Shown here: positions 7,451 through 15,576 of the stretch, in pieces
How the letters are laid out: each line of letters opens with the position of its first letter
Position numbering within the stretch: position 1 is the stretch's first letter
Source: Curtobacterium sp. BH-2-1-1
GTDB lineage: Bacteria > Actinomycetota > Actinomycetes > Actinomycetales > Microbacteriaceae
Assembly: GCF_001806325.1 (NCBI RefSeq)
Contig: NZ_CP017580.1
Location: 1,054,001-1,118,000, forward strand
Direction of reading: 5' to 3'
DNA: 64,000 bases
Notes under the pieces: model-generated
The model's database searches: none
What the model saw: the letters and a program-made list of their open reading frames with translations, nothing else
Told to the model about the DNA's origin: nothing
Program-made: the position numbers and the translations under genes

Positions 7451-8557
7451 TCAGCCAGTGGTGGCGCTGTGGAGGAGATGTCGTGCGACCTGTTCCTCGT
7501 CCCAGTCGATGCCGGCGCCGGGCTTGTCCGGAGTTGCGATGTGTCCATCGACGGGTCTGAGTGGGTCTGCGAGGATCGGGTCCGCCCAATCGACCCATTC
7601 GAGCCAGTGGGCAGTGCTGCTCGTGCGTAAGAGGTGGACTGCGAACTCGGGGTAGAGGTGGTTCGAGAGTTGGACTCCGGCCGCGGCGGCGAGTCCAGCG
7701 GTTCGTATCCAGCCGGTGACACCGCCGATGCGTTCCAGGTCCGCCATGGCGTAATGCACCGAGCCGGCGGCAGCCAGGTTGTACAGGTCGCGGGCTCCGT
7801 AGAAGTTTTCGCCCACCTGCAGCGGCGTGCGAACGCTCCGTGCAAGAGCTGCATATCCGTGAACGTCGCTGTAGTCGATCGGCTCCTCGAACCAGTAGAG
7901 GCCTTGGTCGTCGAGTTCGTGGCAGCGTCGTATTGCGTCGCCAACGCCGAAGGCTTGATTGAAGTCGACCATCAGGTCCACGCCGTCGCCGATCGCGTCC
8001 CTGACTGAACGGATTGCGCGCAGGTCGTCGGCGAGGTGCTCGTTGCCGAGACGAAGCTTCACTGCGGTGAACCCGCCGTCGGCGAGTAGCTCCGCAGCCT
8101 CCTCGCCGAGCGTGTTCGGGTCGTGACGCCACAGGCCGTTGCTGTTGTAGGCACGAAACGTTCCGATGGAGCCTCCGAGGAGCTCCACAAGCGGCAGGTT
8201 CGCCGCGCGTCCGAGAGCGTCCCACATGGCCATGTCGATGGCGCTCCGAGCGATGGCCGAGATACCCGTCTCGCCGATCGGATTGAGCGCGGCCGCCGAG
8301 GCGTCGAACGCGTCCACGGCGCCGGTCGCACGCCCTTTGAGCAGGTCGCCGACGGCTACGACTTCGCGGACGATAGATGGTAGCGCCGAGGCGTTGTACG
8401 GGGAGACATAACTGCGGCCGGTCACTCCTTCTTCGAACGTGATGTCGATAAGGACAAGTGGCCACTGCTCGAACCGGCCGATCGCGGCAATGACCGTCCG
8501 CCTAAGCGGCACCGATACGGCGCGGACCTGCAGGGAGTGCACAGTGAGGTTCGCCAT
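7451..8557 (-). CDS. Mandelate racemase/muconate lactonizing enzyme family protein
   Basis: A 368-residue enolase-superfamily protein with N-terminal capping domain and TIM-like barrel. Metal ligands are Asp198, Glu224 and Glu250. The base dyad is Asp273/His300, and Glu320 sits in TAHWLE. All are offset by exactly three from the known mandelate racemase residues (195, 221, 247, 270, 297, 317). The second active-site motif is Lys167-Leu-Arg169 where mandelate racemase has Lys164-x-Lys166, so one lysine base is an arginine. GGVTGWIR is also shared. It probably racemises or dehydrates a 2-hydroxy acid. It heads the - strand catabolic cluster, 47 bases before the propeller gene. Confidence 0.9.
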   Translation of the reverse strand: MANLTVHSLQVRAVSVPLRRTVIAAIGRFEQWPLVLIDITFEEGVTGRSYVSPYNASALPSIVREVVAVGDLLKGRATGAVDAFDASAAALNPIGETGISAIARSAIDMAMWDALGRAANLPLVELLGGSIGTFRAYNSNGLWRHDPNTLGEEAAELLADGGFTAVKLRLGNEHLADDLRAIRSVRDAIGDGVDLMVDFNQAFGVGDAIRRCHELDDQGLYWFEEPIDYSDVHGYAALARSVRTPLQVGENFYGARDLYNLAAAGSVHYAMADLERIGGVTGWIRTAGLAAAAGVQLSNHLYPEFAVHLLRTSSTAHWLEWVDWADPILADPLRPVDGHIATPDKPGAGIDWDEEQVARHLLHSATTG

Positions 8558-8735
8558 TGTTGCCGTCCTGTTCGATGGGCGCCCGCTCTCACGGGCTGTC
8601 TTCCCTTCGGACGCTAAGACGTTCCGGGCGCTTCATCGTGTCCCTGCCACGGTCATCGATCGCACCTGACCCGGCACCTCCCGTCATCGCGCGGATGCGC
8701 CGGGGAACGGGCGCGGAGATACCCCTGTCAGGGCC

Positions 8736-8918
8736 ATGCTCGCCTGTCCAAAACCCACGGTCGAAGTGCGTGTGGCCGACGTCCCGCTTCATCCCGCGTC
8801 GACTGCCGCGATCGCCGGCGTCGTCCGGGCGCTCGTCGACACCGCCGAGAAGTGGCTCATCGCCCGGGCACGTGCGAGCCGCAGGTCCCCGTTGGAGCTG
8901 CTGCCGCGCGCCCGTTAG
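8736..8918 (+). pseudogene. Remnant of a glutamate-cysteine ligase type 2 (YbdK/EgtA-like) gene
   Basis: A 60-codon frame whose core PTVEVRVADVPL followed by AAIAGVVRALVDTA matches the segment near the C-terminus of carboxylate-amine ligases of the GCS2 family. A complete gene would be about 360-400 codons, and no matching N-terminal part precedes it in any frame. I read it as a decayed fragment at the junction between the catabolic cluster and the mobile region. The family call comes from remembered motifs and needs a search. Confidence 0.5.
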
Positions 8919-9030
8919 ACGCCAGCCGCCCGTCGGGCGAATGCGGCGCGCGGCACACCCGGTGAAAACAGGGAACAACTTGCTGCTTTATGCCACGCTG
9001 GAAGGAATCCCCCACGATATGGAGCAGCGC

Positions 9031-9381
9031 ATGGCACAGAAAGTAACCACCCACCTCGTCGACGACCTTTCCGGCGACGTCATCGAACCCGGCAACGGAC
9101 GCACTATTCAGTTCGGCTTCGACGGCAGCAACTACGAGATCGACCTCAGCGACGACAACGCCGACAAGTTCCGTGAAGCGTTCTCCGACTACATCGCCGC
9201 AGCCCGCAAGGTCTCCGGTCGCAGCACTCGCACGTCGTCCGCATCCCCGGCGGCGCAGGGGCGCAGCAACCCCGGCGAGTTGGCGAAAATCCGCGAATGG
9301 GCCGCCGCGAACGGTCACGAGGTTGCCGCCCGTGGCCGGATCAGCCAGCAGGTCCGCGACGCGTACGCCGCGGCGACCTGA
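9031..9381 (+). CDS. lsr2: Lsr2-family nucleoid-associated protein
   Basis: A 116-residue Lsr2 homologue. This xenogeneic silencer coats AT-rich, often acquired, DNA in actinobacteria. The N-terminal dimerisation half starts AQKVTTHLVDDL and includes FGFDGSNYEIDLS. A Ser/Ala/Pro linker follows. The C-terminal DNA-binding half has IREWAAANGHEV and the minor-groove hook ARGRI, with the RGR motif. The ATG at 9031 has GGAG at 9021-9024; an ATG at 9019 is possible but has no site. It sits at the left edge of the mobile gene group, so it may be an island-borne paralogue. Confidence 0.92.
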   Translation: MAQKVTTHLVDDLSGDVIEPGNGRTIQFGFDGSNYEIDLSDDNADKFREAFSDYIAAARKVSGRSTRTSSASPAAQGRSNPGELAKIREWAAANGHEVAARGRISQQVRDAYAAAT

Positions 9382-9608: not shown

Positions 9609-10178
9609 CTAGCGGGTCTCCGCTCGCCTACGCGGCAGCCGCTTCCGTCCAGTGGTCGTCCCAGCTGGGCGGTTCCGCCACTGTCCTTCCTCGGTCTTCT
9701 TCTTTGAGCGCGGAGCGGAGCGGTGTCCACTGAGGGCGCAGTCGGGGCAGCCGGTCGCGTGCTTGGAGGTGTGATTGTCCGGGCGCACTGAGAACGCCCC
9801 GTGTCTGCGGCAGCTCACCGCGACGTCGGTTCGCGCGTCCACGTAGGCGACGTCGGTGTAGTCGTACCGGTCGCCGTGCGTAGCCAGAGCCTTCGCAACG
9901 AAGCGCTTCCGACGAATATTCGTCTGCGCGTTGAACCCTCTGCAGTCTCGGCATCCCTGGCCGCGCTGCGGGCCCCAGGGCGTTTCGCGGACTCGGCGGT
10001 GCTCGCGCGGGGTTTGCTCGAAGGGTCCGTGGTCGGGGCAGATGATGGTGACCTTGGTATCGCCGTTGACGTAGCCGAGCATGACGTGCGCGTAGTCGTA
10101 TCGGCTGTCGTGGAGCTTCGTCGCGAAGTTGATGAACTCGGCGGCTCGTTCTTCACGGGTGGCGGTGCGGTAGTTCAA
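9609..10178 (-). CDS. Duplicated zinc-ribbon protein (DUF723-like repeats)
   Basis: A 189-residue protein with two copies of a domain having the pattern YDY-x(n)-CxxHG-x-F-x(n)-H-x(n)-CxxC. Copy one spans about residues 14-80, with RYDYAHV, CPDHGPF and CRDC. Copy two spans about 93-147, with RYDYTDV, CRRHGAF and CPDC. Such repeats occur in phage and mobile-element proteins of unknown role, often near homing-type nucleases. The basic C-terminal tail (RSKKK) could bind nucleic acid. The start is TTG at 10178 with GGAGG five bases upstream. The family name is from memory. Confidence 0.65.
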   Translation of the reverse strand: MNYRTATREERAAEFINFATKLHDSRYDYAHVMLGYVNGDTKVTIICPDHGPFEQTPREHRRVRETPWGPQRGQGCRDCRGFNAQTNIRRKRFVAKALATHGDRYDYTDVAYVDARTDVAVSCRRHGAFSVRPDNHTSKHATGCPDCALSGHRSAPRSKKKTEEGQWRNRPAGTTTGRKRLPRRRAETR

Positions 10179-10617: not shown

Positions 10618-11520
10618 ATGCGGAAGTATCGGAGCCAGTCGGTTCCCGCGGACCGGTGGGCCAACATCGAGCCGTTCGTGCTGGACGCTGTCGCGCTCGT
10701 CGCGCCCGCGTGTGCCTACCTTGCTGAGCGGCTGATGGTCGCGGTGACGCCGTACGTTGACTGGGTCGTGCACGTCAACGGGATTCAGAAGGTCGCGAAC
10801 GTGTTTCACCCGGTGTTGATTCGCCGGTACGTCTCCCGCGACGACCTCCACCTCAAGGACAAGACGCGCCGCGACTACCGGTCCTTCCTGCTCCGGATCT
10901 CGGAGGTCGTCCTCCCCGACGAGGGTCCGATCGAGTTTGCGCCGTTGAACGGGCAGTCCGTCACTGCCCCGTACACCGACCTCGAACTGAACCTGCTGGA
11001 GTCCTGGGCGCGTGGGCAGTCCACGGCACTGCGACGTCGAGGTGCTGGCGCAGTCCTCGCACTGGGAGCAGGTGCTGGGCTTGACCCGTGGGAGATGCAG
11101 CACCTCCGGCGCAGCGACGTGCGCGTTGACCGTGACGGAGCGCTCGTCGACGTACGGGCTGGGACGCCGAGGTTGGTGCCCGTGCTCAAACGATGGGAGC
11201 AGCTCCTCATTGACTCCCTCGCGGACGTGCCGGACGACGCATGGGTGCTTGGCGGGGAGGACAGAAAGACGACCTACAACTTCGTCACGCCGTTCATCAA
11301 CCACACCGACTTCGGCAACGAACCGAAGCCAGTCCCCACGCGAATGCGCGCTACGTGGATCACCACGCACCTCGCTGGCGGCACGCACGCCGGGGAGCTC
11401 ATGGCTGCCGGCGGACTGCGCAAGCCCGAGCACTTGGTCACGTCCCTGCGGCACATTCCGACGATGGACGCTTCCGAGCACCGTCGACGGATCCTCGGCG
11501 AAGCACGCGAAGTTCGGTAA
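10618..11520 (+). CDS. Tyrosine-recombinase-like protein lacking catalytic residues (paralogue 1)
   Basis: About 300 residues, clearly paralogous to the protein encoded at 12559-13449 (shared VDWVV-VNG, FHPV-IRRY, LLESWA-GQST and GNEP-PV-TRMR-TW). Residues 140-170 fit the tyrosine-recombinase box I (AVLALGAGAGL-x4-E-x2-LRRSDV), but the invariant Arg is Asp156. Box II keeps Arg244 with Thr for His. A His279 is in the LGH position, yet the nucleophile position, nine residues on, is His288 rather than Tyr. It is therefore probably not a recombinase but a DNA-binding or regulatory relative. The ATG at 10618 is chosen by alignment with the paralogue; its ribosome site is weak. Confidence 0.7.
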   Translation: MRKYRSQSVPADRWANIEPFVLDAVALVAPACAYLAERLMVAVTPYVDWVVHVNGIQKVANVFHPVLIRRYVSRDDLHLKDKTRRDYRSFLLRISEVVLPDEGPIEFAPLNGQSVTAPYTDLELNLLESWARGQSTALRRRGAGAVLALGAGAGLDPWEMQHLRRSDVRVDRDGALVDVRAGTPRLVPVLKRWEQLLIDSLADVPDDAWVLGGEDRKTTYNFVTPFINHTDFGNEPKPVPTRMRATWITTHLAGGTHAGELMAAGGLRKPEHLVTSLRHIPTMDASEHRRRILGEAREVR

Positions 11521-11525
11521 CGCCA

Positions 11526-12095
11526 TCAGAGGACACGGAACCGTGCGGCCCGGAGCTGCTGCTCGCGTTCGGGCAGCAGGCTGCCGCGGGCGTGCTGGGC
11601 GCGTTGCTGGGCGACCCACCGTCCGATCGTCACCTCGGCAGGGTCGGCCGCGCGACGACGCGGCGGTCGCTGATGATCGGCCCAGAACTGCTGGTGCGCG
11701 GCGAGCATCGCGGACCACTGCGCGTCCCGAGGGTTCCAGGCGAAGCCCGGCACCGCTTCAAGTCGTCGCACCTGGTACGAGCAGTAGCCTCCCGCAGCGC
11801 CGACCTGCCGGAAGTAGGTGAGGGCGTCGACGAGGGTCTGCTCGGCGGTCGCAGGGCGAGGACGGGTCGAGTCGGCGCGGGGCATCCGTCCGTGCTCGTC
11901 GACGAACTCGTCGAGGTCGTGCACTCGGTCGGTCCAGCGTCGTACGAACGTTTCGACCTCGACGGCGTCATCGGTGTCGGCGAGGTAGAACGCGACGCCG
12001 CGTCGTTGGTCGAGGGTGAGTGTCAGGGCTGGCTGCGCTGCGTGGTCGGCGTACTCGCCGTGGAGCGCTGCGAGCGCCGTGGTCGGGGTGGGCAT
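11526..12095 (-). CDS. Helicase-associated (HA) domain protein
   Basis: A 189-residue protein with repeated helical modules of the helicase-associated type. Its parts include FVDEHGRMPR near residue 65 and a C-terminal IGRWVAQQRAQ-x4-LLPEREQQL module, the hallmark W-x3-QR and L-x2-ER spacing. These domains accompany helicases or occur alone on actinobacterial mobile elements and are thought to bind nucleic acid. The ATG at 12095 has AGAGGA just upstream. It lies antisense between the two recombinase-like paralogues, so it is either cargo or an insertion that separated them. Confidence 0.7.
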   Translation of the reverse strand: MPTPTTALAALHGEYADHAAQPALTLTLDQRRGVAFYLADTDDAVEVETFVRRWTDRVHDLDEFVDEHGRMPRADSTRPRPATAEQTLVDALTYFRQVGAAGGYCSYQVRRLEAVPGFAWNPRDAQWSAMLAAHQQFWADHQRPPRRRAADPAEVTIGRWVAQQRAQHARGSLLPEREQQLRAARFRVL

Positions 12096-12558
12096 GTGGT
12101 CCTCTCCGAGGCCGGCGGTCGGCCTCGGAGGGGGTATGCGCGGAACGGGCGTGATCTTGGAGGACGCGCGGGTCGCAGACGAGCGGGGTCCGCAAACAGG
12201 ACCAATCCGGCCGCGAAGATCACTACGTTTTCTGCGTCCCCGAAGCAGAGAGCCGCCCGGATCGCATGCACATCGCCAGCGTCACGCGTACGACGCCGAC
12301 GGCACCGTCACATGTGCGAGCAAGCGGCGACACGCCCGGGGTGACGCGACCGTTCGCGTCGGCGGCGCCCCCCGACCATCCGCGCGGGCATGCCGATCCG
12401 CCGGCAGCGAGATCGGAATCTGGAGCGCCCTCCCACAGCTCATCTCACTTCGCCTGCATAGGCCGGGCATGCCTAGCCAGATGCTCCGGTCACCGCGTCA
12501 GTACATCGCCGCGATGCTGCGCGTCCTCCTGTCGTTCCTCGCACGCGGAGGAACACCG
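12096..12558. other. Intergenic region upstream of the second recombinase-like gene
   Basis: Some 460 bases lie between the divergent HA-domain gene and the GTG at 12559. The frame upstream of 12559 is open but shows no similarity to the paralogue and is rich in Arg, Pro and Ser, as expected of shadow frames. A stretch at 12126-12137 also occurs after the eight-G run near 1944. The region must hold the promoter for the recombinase-like/transposase unit, but no clear -35/-10 pair was seen. Confidence 0.35.
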
Positions 12559-13449
12559 GTGAAGTACGTCCCGACGTTCGCGGCCGACCGATGGGGCGTT
12601 GTCCGCGACTTCGTGGTCAGCGCAGTCGCCGAGGCGGCAGCGCCCATTGCTCAGCCAGCCGACCGGCTCATCGTCGTCGCGGCACCGTTCGTCGACTGGG
12701 TCGTCAACGTCAACGGATACCCGGCGAAGACCGCCGTCGTGTTTCACCCCGTCATCATCCGGCGCTACATCACCCGCACCGACGTCACCTGGTCGGACAC
12801 CACGCGTCGCACATACCGGTCGGCGCTGATGCGCATGTCCGAAGTCCTCGTCGGCGAGGTGCCGCTGGAGTTCGCACCGACGACTCCGCAGAACACCGCA
12901 GCACCCTACGACGACCTCGACCTGCACCTCCTCGAAAGCTGGGCGACGGGCCAGTCGACCACGGCACGACGTCGCAGCGCCGGCGTCGTCCTCGCGCTGT
13001 GCACCGGAGCGGGTCTCAAGGCGAACGAGCTCCTCCAAGTCCGCCGCCAAGACATCCTCGCTGACGCCGAGGGCATCCTCGTCGCTGTCAACGCGGGAGC
13101 CCGGACCGTTCCGCTCCTGGCGCGCTTCGAAACGCTCCTGCTCAACTCCATCGTCGAGGTCGAGCCGGAGCAGTGGGTGTTCGGATCCCCGAAGCGCGTC
13201 AAGCACGGCATCAGCACCCTCACCACGTTCCTCTACGACACCGACCGCGGCAACGAACCAGACCCCGTCACCACCCGCATGCGGAACACCTGGCTCATCA
13301 CGCACCTCATCGCTCGCACCGACATGCGCGCCCTCATGACCGCCGCCGGCGTCACCAAATTCGAACACCTCGACCAGCTCGTCGCTCATGTCCCCGCGCT
13401 CGACGCGGCCTCGTACCGCCGTCAGCTCCGCACGGAGGCCGCACGATGA
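12559..13449 (+). CDS. Tyrosine-recombinase-like protein with partly conserved active site (paralogue 2)
   Basis: A 296-residue paralogue of the protein at 10618-11520. Box I reads VVLALCTGAGL-K154-x2-E-x2-QVRRQDI, so the first catalytic Arg is Lys154. Box II keeps Arg242, with Thr239 in place of His. His277 and Tyr286 have exactly the nine-residue spacing of the LGH...Y segment in active recombinases. Some activity therefore remains possible here, unlike in paralogue 1. The GTG at 12559 has GGAGG at 12547-12551. The stop overlaps the transposase ATG in an ATGA, so the two proteins are made together, probably as parts of one transposition system. Confidence 0.7.
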   Translation: MKYVPTFAADRWGVVRDFVVSAVAEAAAPIAQPADRLIVVAAPFVDWVVNVNGYPAKTAVVFHPVIIRRYITRTDVTWSDTTRRTYRSALMRMSEVLVGEVPLEFAPTTPQNTAAPYDDLDLHLLESWATGQSTTARRRSAGVVLALCTGAGLKANELLQVRRQDILADAEGILVAVNAGARTVPLLARFETLLLNSIVEVEPEQWVFGSPKRVKHGISTLTTFLYDTDRGNEPDPVTTRMRNTWLITHLIARTDMRALMTAAGVTKFEHLDQLVAHVPALDAASYRRQLRTEAAR

Positions 13450-15268
13450 CCGCGCCGAAGCCGAAGCACCACGACTTCGAAGACGCCGAACGCTGGATGG
13501 CCGAAGACTTCGGCATCACCATGTCGAAGTACATCCGCATAGGCGACGTGTTCCCACTCGAGCTCGCCACCCACGTCCCACTACGCGTGTTCGAACGCGG
13601 CTGCATCCGTGAGCGGCTTGAACGCTGGAAACGCGAAAGCATGAAGTCAACTCGCGGCCGGAAAGCTCACATCTCCGAGACCAGCGTCACAATGTTGATG
13701 TTCATCACGATGCGCTCACGGCGCAGCATCAGCATTCAGCAGATGACCGAAGTGCTGATGGCGATGACCACCAGTCAGCGCGAGGCTATCGGCATCCTCA
13801 AATTCACACCGCACCAAGCGACGCTGTACCGGCGCATCTGGGAAGCAATTCAGCGTCTGCGGAAGCTCGTCGACCGCCACCCAGGGCCACGCCGGAAAGC
13901 GCTGACTCCCGAAGAACTCGCCATCGAACTCGCAGACCTGCGCGGCCCGGAGGAGATGGCCGTTCGAGCCGCCCGCATGCTCGAACTCTCGAACCAAATC
14001 ATTGAAGGCTCCGTGCTGATGATGAACCGTGAAGTCCGACGACGATTCCGCGGCGCAATCGCCATCGACGAGACCTTTGCCGAGGTCTCCGGTCGACAGA
14101 AGAGCGGGAAGAACCTCAAGCCCGGCGACAAGCTCTCGACGAACTACGACTGCGGCTGGTATGGACGTGAAGGCAGCCATGACCCCGACGTCGACGGCGG
14201 CAAGAAGTACAAGTTCGGGTGGGAGCTCGAGTTCGCCGTGATGACGCGCGACCCCAGCGAAACCGAAGCAGCCTATCCGCTCCTCCTTCTATCAACCAGT
14301 GGACACAAGCCGGGCGCGCTTCGGGGCCATGGGCTCTTCCTCTACGAGTCCGCGGCGAACCGCGGCCACAAGATCAACACGGTCATCGGCGACCGCGCGT
14401 ACTTGCCCGGTGCCGACCCCGACGACCTGCAGCGCCCCTCGCAGCCGCGGGCGTGAAAGTGGTCATGGACTACAAGGATGTCGAGGAAGAGATTGGAAAG
14501 CAGGCCTTCTACGCCGACGGCCGGCACAACCTCATCATGGTCGCCGGGAGTTGGCACCTCGCGTTCATGCCGGAAGCTCTCGTGACCGCCGAGGCAGACT
14601 GGCGCAAACTCGTGAAAGCAACCGAATCGCTGCCCGATAAGGAACGCAAAAACAGGCGAGCTGAGGGCAAGGCGCTTCTCGTCCAGCGACGCGCAGAACG
14701 GAGTAAGTACCGGCTCACACCCCGCAGTGGCTACGACCTCACCGGCGCACGCCAGTACACGTACCCCGACTTCAAGGACCCGTCCGTCTACGACGAGTCC
14801 ACGAAGAAGTTCATCCCGGTCTCCATCCCGGGAAAGACTGTGAAGATTCCTGGCGTGCTGCACGACGACAAGGGTGTCAAGCACCAGAAGCACCTCAAGT
14901 ACGGTCAGGAGTTCGAGTACAAGTCCGATGTTTGGCGCGCCTGGTACGGCAAGCGCAACAACATCGAGAACGGAAACTCCCGACTCAAAGATGCTGATCG
15001 CGAAGCGCTTGGCATCCCGATGAAGCGACGCATGCGCGGCCCGTGGGCCGTCGAGATCGCCGGCGCGATGGCGGCCGCCAGCGCGAACATCACCCGCATC
15101 ATCGACTGGCTCAAGGCACGACTCGCACTTGCCTCGATGAACCGCATGAACAGAACGAGCGCCGCGCTCTTCGAACCCGGTATCGACAAGCTCACCGTCG
15201 CTGACCACGACGAACGGAACGAGTTCAACAGGCTCGCTCAAATCGACAGCCTCAGACTCATCGCGTAG
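13446..15268 (+). pseudogene. DDE-type transposase interrupted by a one-base frameshift
   Basis: Two abutting frames make one transposase of about 607 residues. Part one (13446-14456, 336 residues) carries the first acidic residue in IAIDET (Asp208) and the second in VIGDRAY (Asp316). Part two, in the -1 frame from about 14429 to 15268, carries NNIENGNSRLKD, whose Glu (codon 14966-14968) fits the third DDE residue, and a basic C-terminus. Restoring one C to the four-C run at 14435-14438 rejoins the frames exactly. This could be mutation, sequencing error or programmed slippage. The fold resembles IS4/IS1182-type enzymes, but I cannot name the family. The ATG overlaps the upstream stop. Confidence 0.75.
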
Positions 15269-15327: not shown

Positions 15328-15357
15328 GCCCCCTGCCCCGAAACCGAGGCAGGGGGC
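15328..15357 (+). terminator. Hairpin after the transposase gene
   Basis: A perfect 10-bp stem (15328-15337 with 15348-15357) encloses a 10-base loop, 60 bases after the transposase stop. There is no T-tract, which is common for actinobacterial terminators. It could end transcription from the element or mark its right end. A small palindrome, CCAGCTGG, lies just left of it at 15314-15321. Confidence 0.5.
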
Positions 15358-15504
15358 ACTTGTGCATTTCGGTGCGCCGCCGAGAGGGCGATCGCCGTGC
15401 GTTTGCCCCCCGCACCGCGCGGTCGATGCTCGCATGAAGCGTCCCGGATACCGATTGCTCGAATATTCTCAACGAGATCGCTCAAAAAAACGATCTCCCC
15501 CCAG

Positions 15505-15576
15505 CTCCGCCTCCAGGATTCGAACCCGGACCTAACGGCACCAAAGGCCGTCGTGCTGCCATTACACCAAGGCGGA
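15505..15576 (-). tRNA. tRNA-Gln (anticodon TTG)
   Basis: Read on the - strand, 72 bases fold as a complete tRNA. The 7-bp acceptor stem pairs TCCGCCT with AGGCGGA, followed by discriminator G. The D-arm is GTGTAATGGCAGCAC. The anticodon stem is ACGGC/GCCGT around the loop CTTTGGT, with anticodon TTG. The T-arm has GGTTCGAATCC. The CCA is not encoded. It lies directly beside the end of the mobile region, a common integration target. Confidence 0.95.

Follow-up and report, generated by a model that had tools for sequence, protein, structure and literature searches.

Why should a DDE transposase be coupled to two proteins that resemble tyrosine recombinases? The question is raised by a 64,000-nucleotide stretch (the window) of the 3.80-Mb genome of Curtobacterium sp. 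BH-2-1-1 (G000 in our set), in which the gene for a tyrosine-recombinase-like protein, A (10618-11520, plus strand, 300 residues), is followed by a second, B (12559-13449, plus strand, 296 residues, GTG start), and by a gene for a DDE transposase (13446-15268, plus strand). An earlier note on this DNA described A and B as paralogues and reported a four-base ATGA overlap of B with the transposase gene. Both observations hold: A and B translate as reported and are identical at 148 of 291 residues (51%, E=4e-89), and the overlap lies at 13446-13449. What that note had missed is that the transposase gene is frameshifted near 14430 and runs in two frames, 13446-14456 and then to 15268; likewise absent from it is the tRNA-Gln(TTG) gene directly past the transposase (15504-15576, minus strand), whose 3' end faces the transposase and whose edge at 15504 is 236 nt beyond the transposase stop. 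Genome comparisons show that the trio is conserved and that the delimited elements, 16-67 kb long, immediately adjoin tRNA 3' ends. In our opinion, the trio is likely to drive the transposition of a large DDE element specific for tRNA 3' ends, with A and B acting as target selectors.

Conservation of the trio and the ends of its elements

Among 66 Curtobacterium genomes, the transposase profile matches 33 and the A/B profile 30 (at 1e-5). The transposase was also found in at least 69 of 349 genomes and at least 33 of 85 genera of a family sample (1e-10), and in at least 17 of 396 genomes, G000 included, of a phylum-wide sample (1e-8); these family and phylum counts are lower bounds, three candidates having been scored per genome. 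Searches of plasmid and phage collections (tblastn with B and an intact DDE relative) gave no match. From the family search the 30 best loci were examined, and from the phylum search 22. Typically A comes first, followed by 0-12 kb of variable cargo, then B, the transposase and the tRNA.

The pairing of recombinase-like and DDE genes, for which the earlier note had proposed a genome survey, is indeed conserved. With the transposase profile alone as query, a recombinase-like open reading frame (ORF) lies directly upstream on the same strand in 37 of 38 near-full-length family and phylum loci, and a tRNA lies downstream in 35 of 38. Genus loci, which were partly chosen by their A/B genes, are left out of this coupling count; overall, the upstream recombinase-like ORF is found in 68 of 70 near-full-length loci. 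A tRNA is located within 1.5 kb downstream at 61 of 83 transposase loci, convergent with the transposase in all 61 cases and at a median of 232 nt from its stop, and family and phylum loci alone give 38 of 47. The background amounts to 15 tRNAs in 1.06 Mb (53 other stretches), i.e., ~1% per 1.5 kb and orientation. This count is a better control than the lack of an upstream tRNA at all 47 family and phylum loci, a weak one since B occupies most of the upstream flank. The labelled loci represent 17 tRNA kinds, of which Ser(TGA) is based on just two hand-assigned loci.

It should be noted that the 83 loci are not all independent, since L005 and L102 seemingly represent one genome and several others are near-copies. 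The counts omit L213, L214, L235, L245 and L260 (repeat views of counted loci, or the window) as well as L003, L006, L104-L109 and the short views L007-L069. Of the 22 loci that lack a tRNA downstream, L082 lies at a contig end; in L086, L089 and L091 the module is inverted, with the tRNA on the opposite side; L092, L096 and L097 have other orientations; in L099 a read-through ORF extends as far as the tRNA; and in L081 the tRNA is 2.8 kb off. The remainder are fragments, or loci at which no tRNA was seen (L080, L227, L254 and others). In L093 and L094 the transposase sits between two recombinase-like genes, with no adjacent tRNA. Next to tRNA-Gln, L104-L108 retain only the C-terminal part of the transposase, as traces of former insertions, and L109 a longer piece.

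The transposase is a single ORF of 607-614 residues in six relatives. The D, D and E of its triad (in the window, codons 14067-14069, 14391-14393 and 14966-14968) are invariant among 27 relatives, and PF01609 matches three of the 27 at E up to 0.01, one of them shown above the cut-off; the transposase profile gave no match in the PDB. The DDE assignment of the earlier note is thus upheld, and by triad and domain match the protein would be classed as a DDE_Tnp_1/IS4-type transposase. The window copy, a tRNA-Gln member, is probably immobile unless helped, because its transposase gene is broken; it is probably no longer active by itself.

Conserved ends and target duplications, which the earlier note had named as features to look for, are present in ten of 16 elements and in the window copy. 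The ten are 16-48 kb long, and their limits are marked by terminal inverted repeats together with a host duplication of 5-7 bp at the tRNA 3' end; the repeats are imperfect, usually starting GGG, and the tRNA is left whole. Judged by terminal inverted repeats and a short target duplication, the elements qualify as DDE transposons. At tRNA-Leu(CAG), four sites with the trio and seven without were available, and G016 was compared directly with G000, and G013 with G064. The inserts measure 26.8 kb (G016) and 41.9 kb (G013), and the native tRNA terminator of the empty site is now located at their far left. They begin with GGG and end with CCC in inverted repeat, and their CTGGT flanks cover the CCA end of the tRNA; in G013, comparison with the empty site gives a 5-bp duplication.

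Elsewhere, far ends were sought using each element's own right end. The duplications found in this way are TTCGGT (G044, 32.6 kb; G006, 15.9 kb) and TTTGGT (G071, another genus, 25.3 kb) at tRNA-Pro, TGTGGC (G058, 34.9 kb; G001, 27.4 kb) and CGTGGC (G060, 48.4 kb) at tRNA-Ser, ACCTGT at tRNA-Leu (G230, another genus, 33.5 kb) and the 7-bp GTGAAGT at tRNA-Ala (G252, another genus, ~23 kb). The far end of G058 abuts the apparent right end of a second such element, and elements may stack at one tRNA. A scripted test required a duplication of exactly 6 bp and used as many as 300 permuted 6-mers per element as control. Seven of the 16 elements combined an exact duplicate with 13-16 of 16 terminal matches, which no permuted 6-mer equalled. 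G016 was significant at 6 bp, with its repeat offset by one base. Since the duplications of G013 and G252 are 5 and 7 bp long, these two failed; the best 6-bp candidate in G013 (p=0.037) differs in place from the 5-bp end given by the empty site and was taken as chance. At the fixed 6 bp, the test returned nothing for G045, G051, G036, G028, G002 and G029.

The window copy is ~66.8 kb long. Its last 15.5 kb lie within the window, and its far end is outside, at G000:C1:1002703, where a left-end block of ~100 bp, shared with G008 at 86% identity, starts GAGGTGTTCGG. In G000 this block is preceded by CCAGC (G000:C1:1002698-1002702), and the identical five bases follow the tRNA-proximal element end (15455-15500, plus strand) as the tRNA-side copy of the target duplication (15501-15505, plus strand). 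A 7.4-kb tRNA-Gln remnant in G008 (L106) has TCCGC on either side, and a 10.0-kb stretch at tRNA-Gln in G063 (L141), with no trio match, has GGAGC on either side, each a 5/5 match. A different host triplet is therefore duplicated in each of the three tRNA-Gln elements. Such host-dependent duplications are the product of staggered cutting by a DDE enzyme; the overlap that a tyrosine recombinase brings with it would hardly agree with every host. L141 and L106, delimited and without an intact trio, may have decayed or may have been moved in trans. The scripted test missed the window copy because of its 5-bp duplication and drifted repeat, and a search for its left end by inverted repeat alone gave nothing above chance. 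Candidate left ends within the window, near 1763 and 10227 (the latter p=0.12), were too weak and were not accepted.

A further regularity concerns the 39 tRNA-proximal ends compared (copies and remnants; 15 at tRNA-Gln, many near-copies), whose self-match peaks at lag 22 (0.45 vs 0.21-0.31), a periodicity reminiscent of arrayed transposase sites. Just inside this end, inspection by eye showed a hairpin and T-rich tail in the Ser, Leu and Pro lineages, as though the tRNA were being supplied with a new terminator by the element.

A and B as candidate target selectors

Combined into a profile, 44 A/B relatives match the XerC-like structure 4a8e at E=4.1e-12, with the catalytic domain covered, and over the same domain XerA (5hxy, 2.8e-6) and XerD (5dcf, 3.7e-5; 1a0p, 1.4e-4). 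Taken one by one, 12 of the 44 proteins match PF00589 (E up to 0.01). Single-sequence matches from the window are weak (B with PF00589, E=0.057; A with a PHROG integrase, 0.003); against Pfam and NCBIfam the window trio gave nothing above cut-off, and against PHROGs weak integrase matches only. The recombinase fold proposed in the earlier note is nevertheless borne out by the profile search, on sequence evidence only, and homology across the catalytic domain would place A and B in the tyrosine recombinase fold superfamily.

The active-site residues of the 44 proteins were placed via one alignment to 4a8e. The second Arg is kept in all 44 and the box-I Arg in 10; no protein has His at either catalytic position (two have gaps at the second), and none has the complete R...H-x-x-R...H...Y set of an active recombinase. 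In the window, Asp replaces the box-I Arg in A and Lys replaces it in B, and neither protein has a Tyr in the aligned nucleophile region or a His at the two aligned catalytic positions. As far as this alignment goes, the active site is degenerate across all 44 proteins, to unequal degree.

We propose the following mechanism. The DDE enzyme would bind the 22-bp-spaced repeats at the element ends, then cut and join. A and B, whose recombinase folds lack an intact active site, would bind the tRNA gene, like a tyrosine integrase at its attachment site, and would direct the DDE enzyme to a fixed spot beside that gene; differing A/B pairs would give differing tRNA targets. Three roles had been suggested in the earlier note, i.e., DNA binding, target choice and resolution; we infer that target choice is the best fit.

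The evidence comes from pairs of elements in which targets and proteins diverge to different extents. Between two tRNA-Gln subgroups (twelve listed pairs), B is 75-79% identical, A 57-69% and the transposase 39-42%; for L004 and L098, both at tRNA-Gln, B is 79-80% identical but the DDE protein only 42%. The tRNA-Lys element compared with L004 (tRNA-Gln) shows the reverse, with 69% for the DDE protein, 55% for the A-type protein and 60% for the B-type protein. At transposase identities of 0.40-0.60, the mean identity of B is 0.47 for pairs with the same target (45 pairs) vs 0.36 for pairs with different targets (20 pairs), these pairs not being independent.

Several observations weigh against target selection by A and B in a DDE transposon. 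The B-type protein of the tRNA-Lys element is encoded ~20 kb from the DDE gene and was paired with it by inference, and the Gln/Lys contrast of A is weak (60% vs 55%). L071 and L078 share a target and have DDE proteins that are 94% identical, yet their B proteins are only 62% identical. The tRNA labels change 20 times on the B tree and 19 times on the DDE tree (~41 when shuffled), so that B is not singled out. A Tyr is present somewhere within the nucleophile region of 18 of the 44 A/B proteins. AlphaFold models were of too low quality to be informative, with a predicted local distance difference test score of 45 for B and 35 for an intact transposase, from alignments of 8 and 4 rows that comprised window sequences and sequences of related loci only. 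As to the ends, the scripted test postdates sight of most of them, the far end was not found in five of the 16 elements, and the length of the duplication varies over the range given above. In G045 the inverted repeat is correct, but the duplicate has three extra bases beside it. The other five of the eight left-end block matches (G056, G007, G003 and two in G015) agree at 0-2 of five bases and show no pairing with the present tRNA junction. Finally, one cargo ORF matches a recombination-directionality-factor-like family.

The near-equal fit of the tRNA labels to the B and DDE trees also suits an arrangement in which recognition of the tRNA falls to the DDE protein, while A and B bind the ends, regulate, or resolve intermediates; resolvases, too, use recombinase folds. 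This arrangement has to contend with the tRNA-Gln subgroups, which keep their target with B far more conserved than the DDE protein, and with the tRNA-Lys element, in which the reverse is seen; resolution in particular is disfavoured by the degenerate active sites. We consider it rather unlikely.

It is much harder to credit that A and B are a true site-specific recombinase with a short crossover, the inverted repeats being core arms and the DDE protein an accessory. Tyrosine integrases classically target tRNA 3' ends, a short overlap between inverted arms would likewise yield short direct repeats, and the nucleophile-region Tyr of 18 proteins agrees with such activity; however, His is absent at both catalytic positions throughout the 44 proteins, the box-I Arg survives in just 10, the duplicated bases match each host's own flank, and all 27 relatives retain the DDE triad. 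That the trio rides as a passenger on tRNA islands inserted by another integrase is scarcely believable, even though tRNA-Gln attracts insertions generally in the genus, with most compared left sides unrelated, and a directionality-factor-like ORF occurs in the cargo, because the duplications and inverted repeats bound the trio-bearing element itself, the distance from transposase stop to tRNA is near-constant, and no other integrase, transposase, TniB or TniQ family was detected at 1e-5 when 53 ORFs were scanned out of 70 that a script had picked from the delimited elements G006, G016 and G071 (17 trio or small ORFs were left out).

Returning to A and B as target selectors, we lean, with more reserve, towards a broader view: a new, cargo-carrying superfamily of defence-gene-bearing DDE transposons across Actinomycetota, in which the tRNA target would be set by an exchangeable pair of disarmed recombinases, an independent invention of the principle known from TnsF (see below).

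Cargo and neighbouring genes

Proteins of AbiJ, TIR/Thoeris, ApeA, Schlafen and acetyltransferase type were recognised in the cargo scan of G006, G016 and G071. In the window, the cargo slot between A and B holds a helicase-associated-domain (PF03457) protein (11526-12095, minus strand). On the other side of A, a zinc-ribbon-like gene with a weak DUF723 match (9609-10178, minus strand) is kept beside A in tRNA-Gln copies; the block common to four close tRNA-Gln relatives starts at the stop codon of this gene, yet the element extends further. Also inside the tRNA-Gln element is an ORF (8557-9381, plus strand) whose end appears to encode a protein like the nucleoid silencer Lsr2. A strong hairpin (15328-15357, plus strand) is located 3' of the transposase, and a pattern scan gave it no terminator score.

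The tRNA-Gln region was matched in 66 of 66 genomes, with left sides (37 sequences compared) that are mostly unrelated, as at an insertion hot spot. In L148 and L159, which have no trio match, element-like ends adjoin tRNA-Gln.

Comparison with known systems

Tyrosine integrases are usually considered responsible for insertions at tRNA genes, where their genomic islands reside. The elements described here share with such islands the target and the A/B fold, and differ from them in the degenerate active site, in the host-dependent short duplications with terminal inverted repeats, and in the DDE enzyme. A DDE transposon appears to insert at tRNA genes here, carrying what look like disarmed integrases. 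Such elements would be a source of tRNA-linked islands, some of them bearing anti-phage genes, that has seemingly gone unnoticed; a search of open-licence papers found none that apparently describes such an element. From the IS4 superfamily (PF01609), with which the DDE triad and R-x3-E-x6-K (21 of 27 relatives) are shared, the elements differ in their length of tens of kilobases, fixed target and recombinase-like partners, and the full Y-2-R-3-E-6-K signature of the IS4 family proper is present in just 5 of 27.

Tn7 and Tn7-like elements carry large cargo, insert at a fixed place beside an essential gene, and have ~22-bp end repeats and a ~5-bp duplication. The present elements resemble these and CRISPR-associated transposons (CASTs) in their large cargo, fixed site beside an essential gene, ~22-bp repeats and ~5-bp duplication. 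Unlike them, they use a transposase of another family, and no TnsC/TniB or TniQ was found in the parts scanned: the trio matches none of TnsB (rve), TnsC/TniB and TniQ, and the cargo scan detected none of these at its threshold.

The closest parallel known to us is TnsF of the Tn7-like Tn6022, in which an inactivated tyrosine-recombinase domain was found by experiment to be the target selector (Faure et al. 2023, PMC10293859). TnsF is a protein of ~500 residues with zinc fingers that acts together with TniQ and the Tn7 machinery, comM being its target; the same paper mentions tRNA targets for Tn7-like and CAST elements. In both systems a DDE transposon is combined with a recombinase domain that lacks an intact active site, the selector role being a proposed one in ours. 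The present system differs in having two recombinase-like proteins of ~300 residues, one DDE_Tnp_1-type transposase and tRNA 3'-end targets. Relative to TnsF as described there, neither N-terminal zinc fingers nor a TniQ partner was found, the latter within the scope of the cargo scan; no zinc-finger family match was obtained in A/B proteins of ~300 residues. In the tRNA-Ser(CGA) group (L071, L073, L077, L078, L079), the predicted B has 420-546 residues and may hold an extra region.

If A and B do select the target, the trio would be a simple three-protein candidate for site-specific insertion, and swapping the selector pair might offer a natural route to insertion beside chosen tRNA genes. 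It would also provide a second system, built from unrelated parts, in which the conversion of a recombinase fold into a target selector could be studied. The principle of a co-opted selector in a site-specific DDE transposon is already known from TnsF; its origin here was probably independent.

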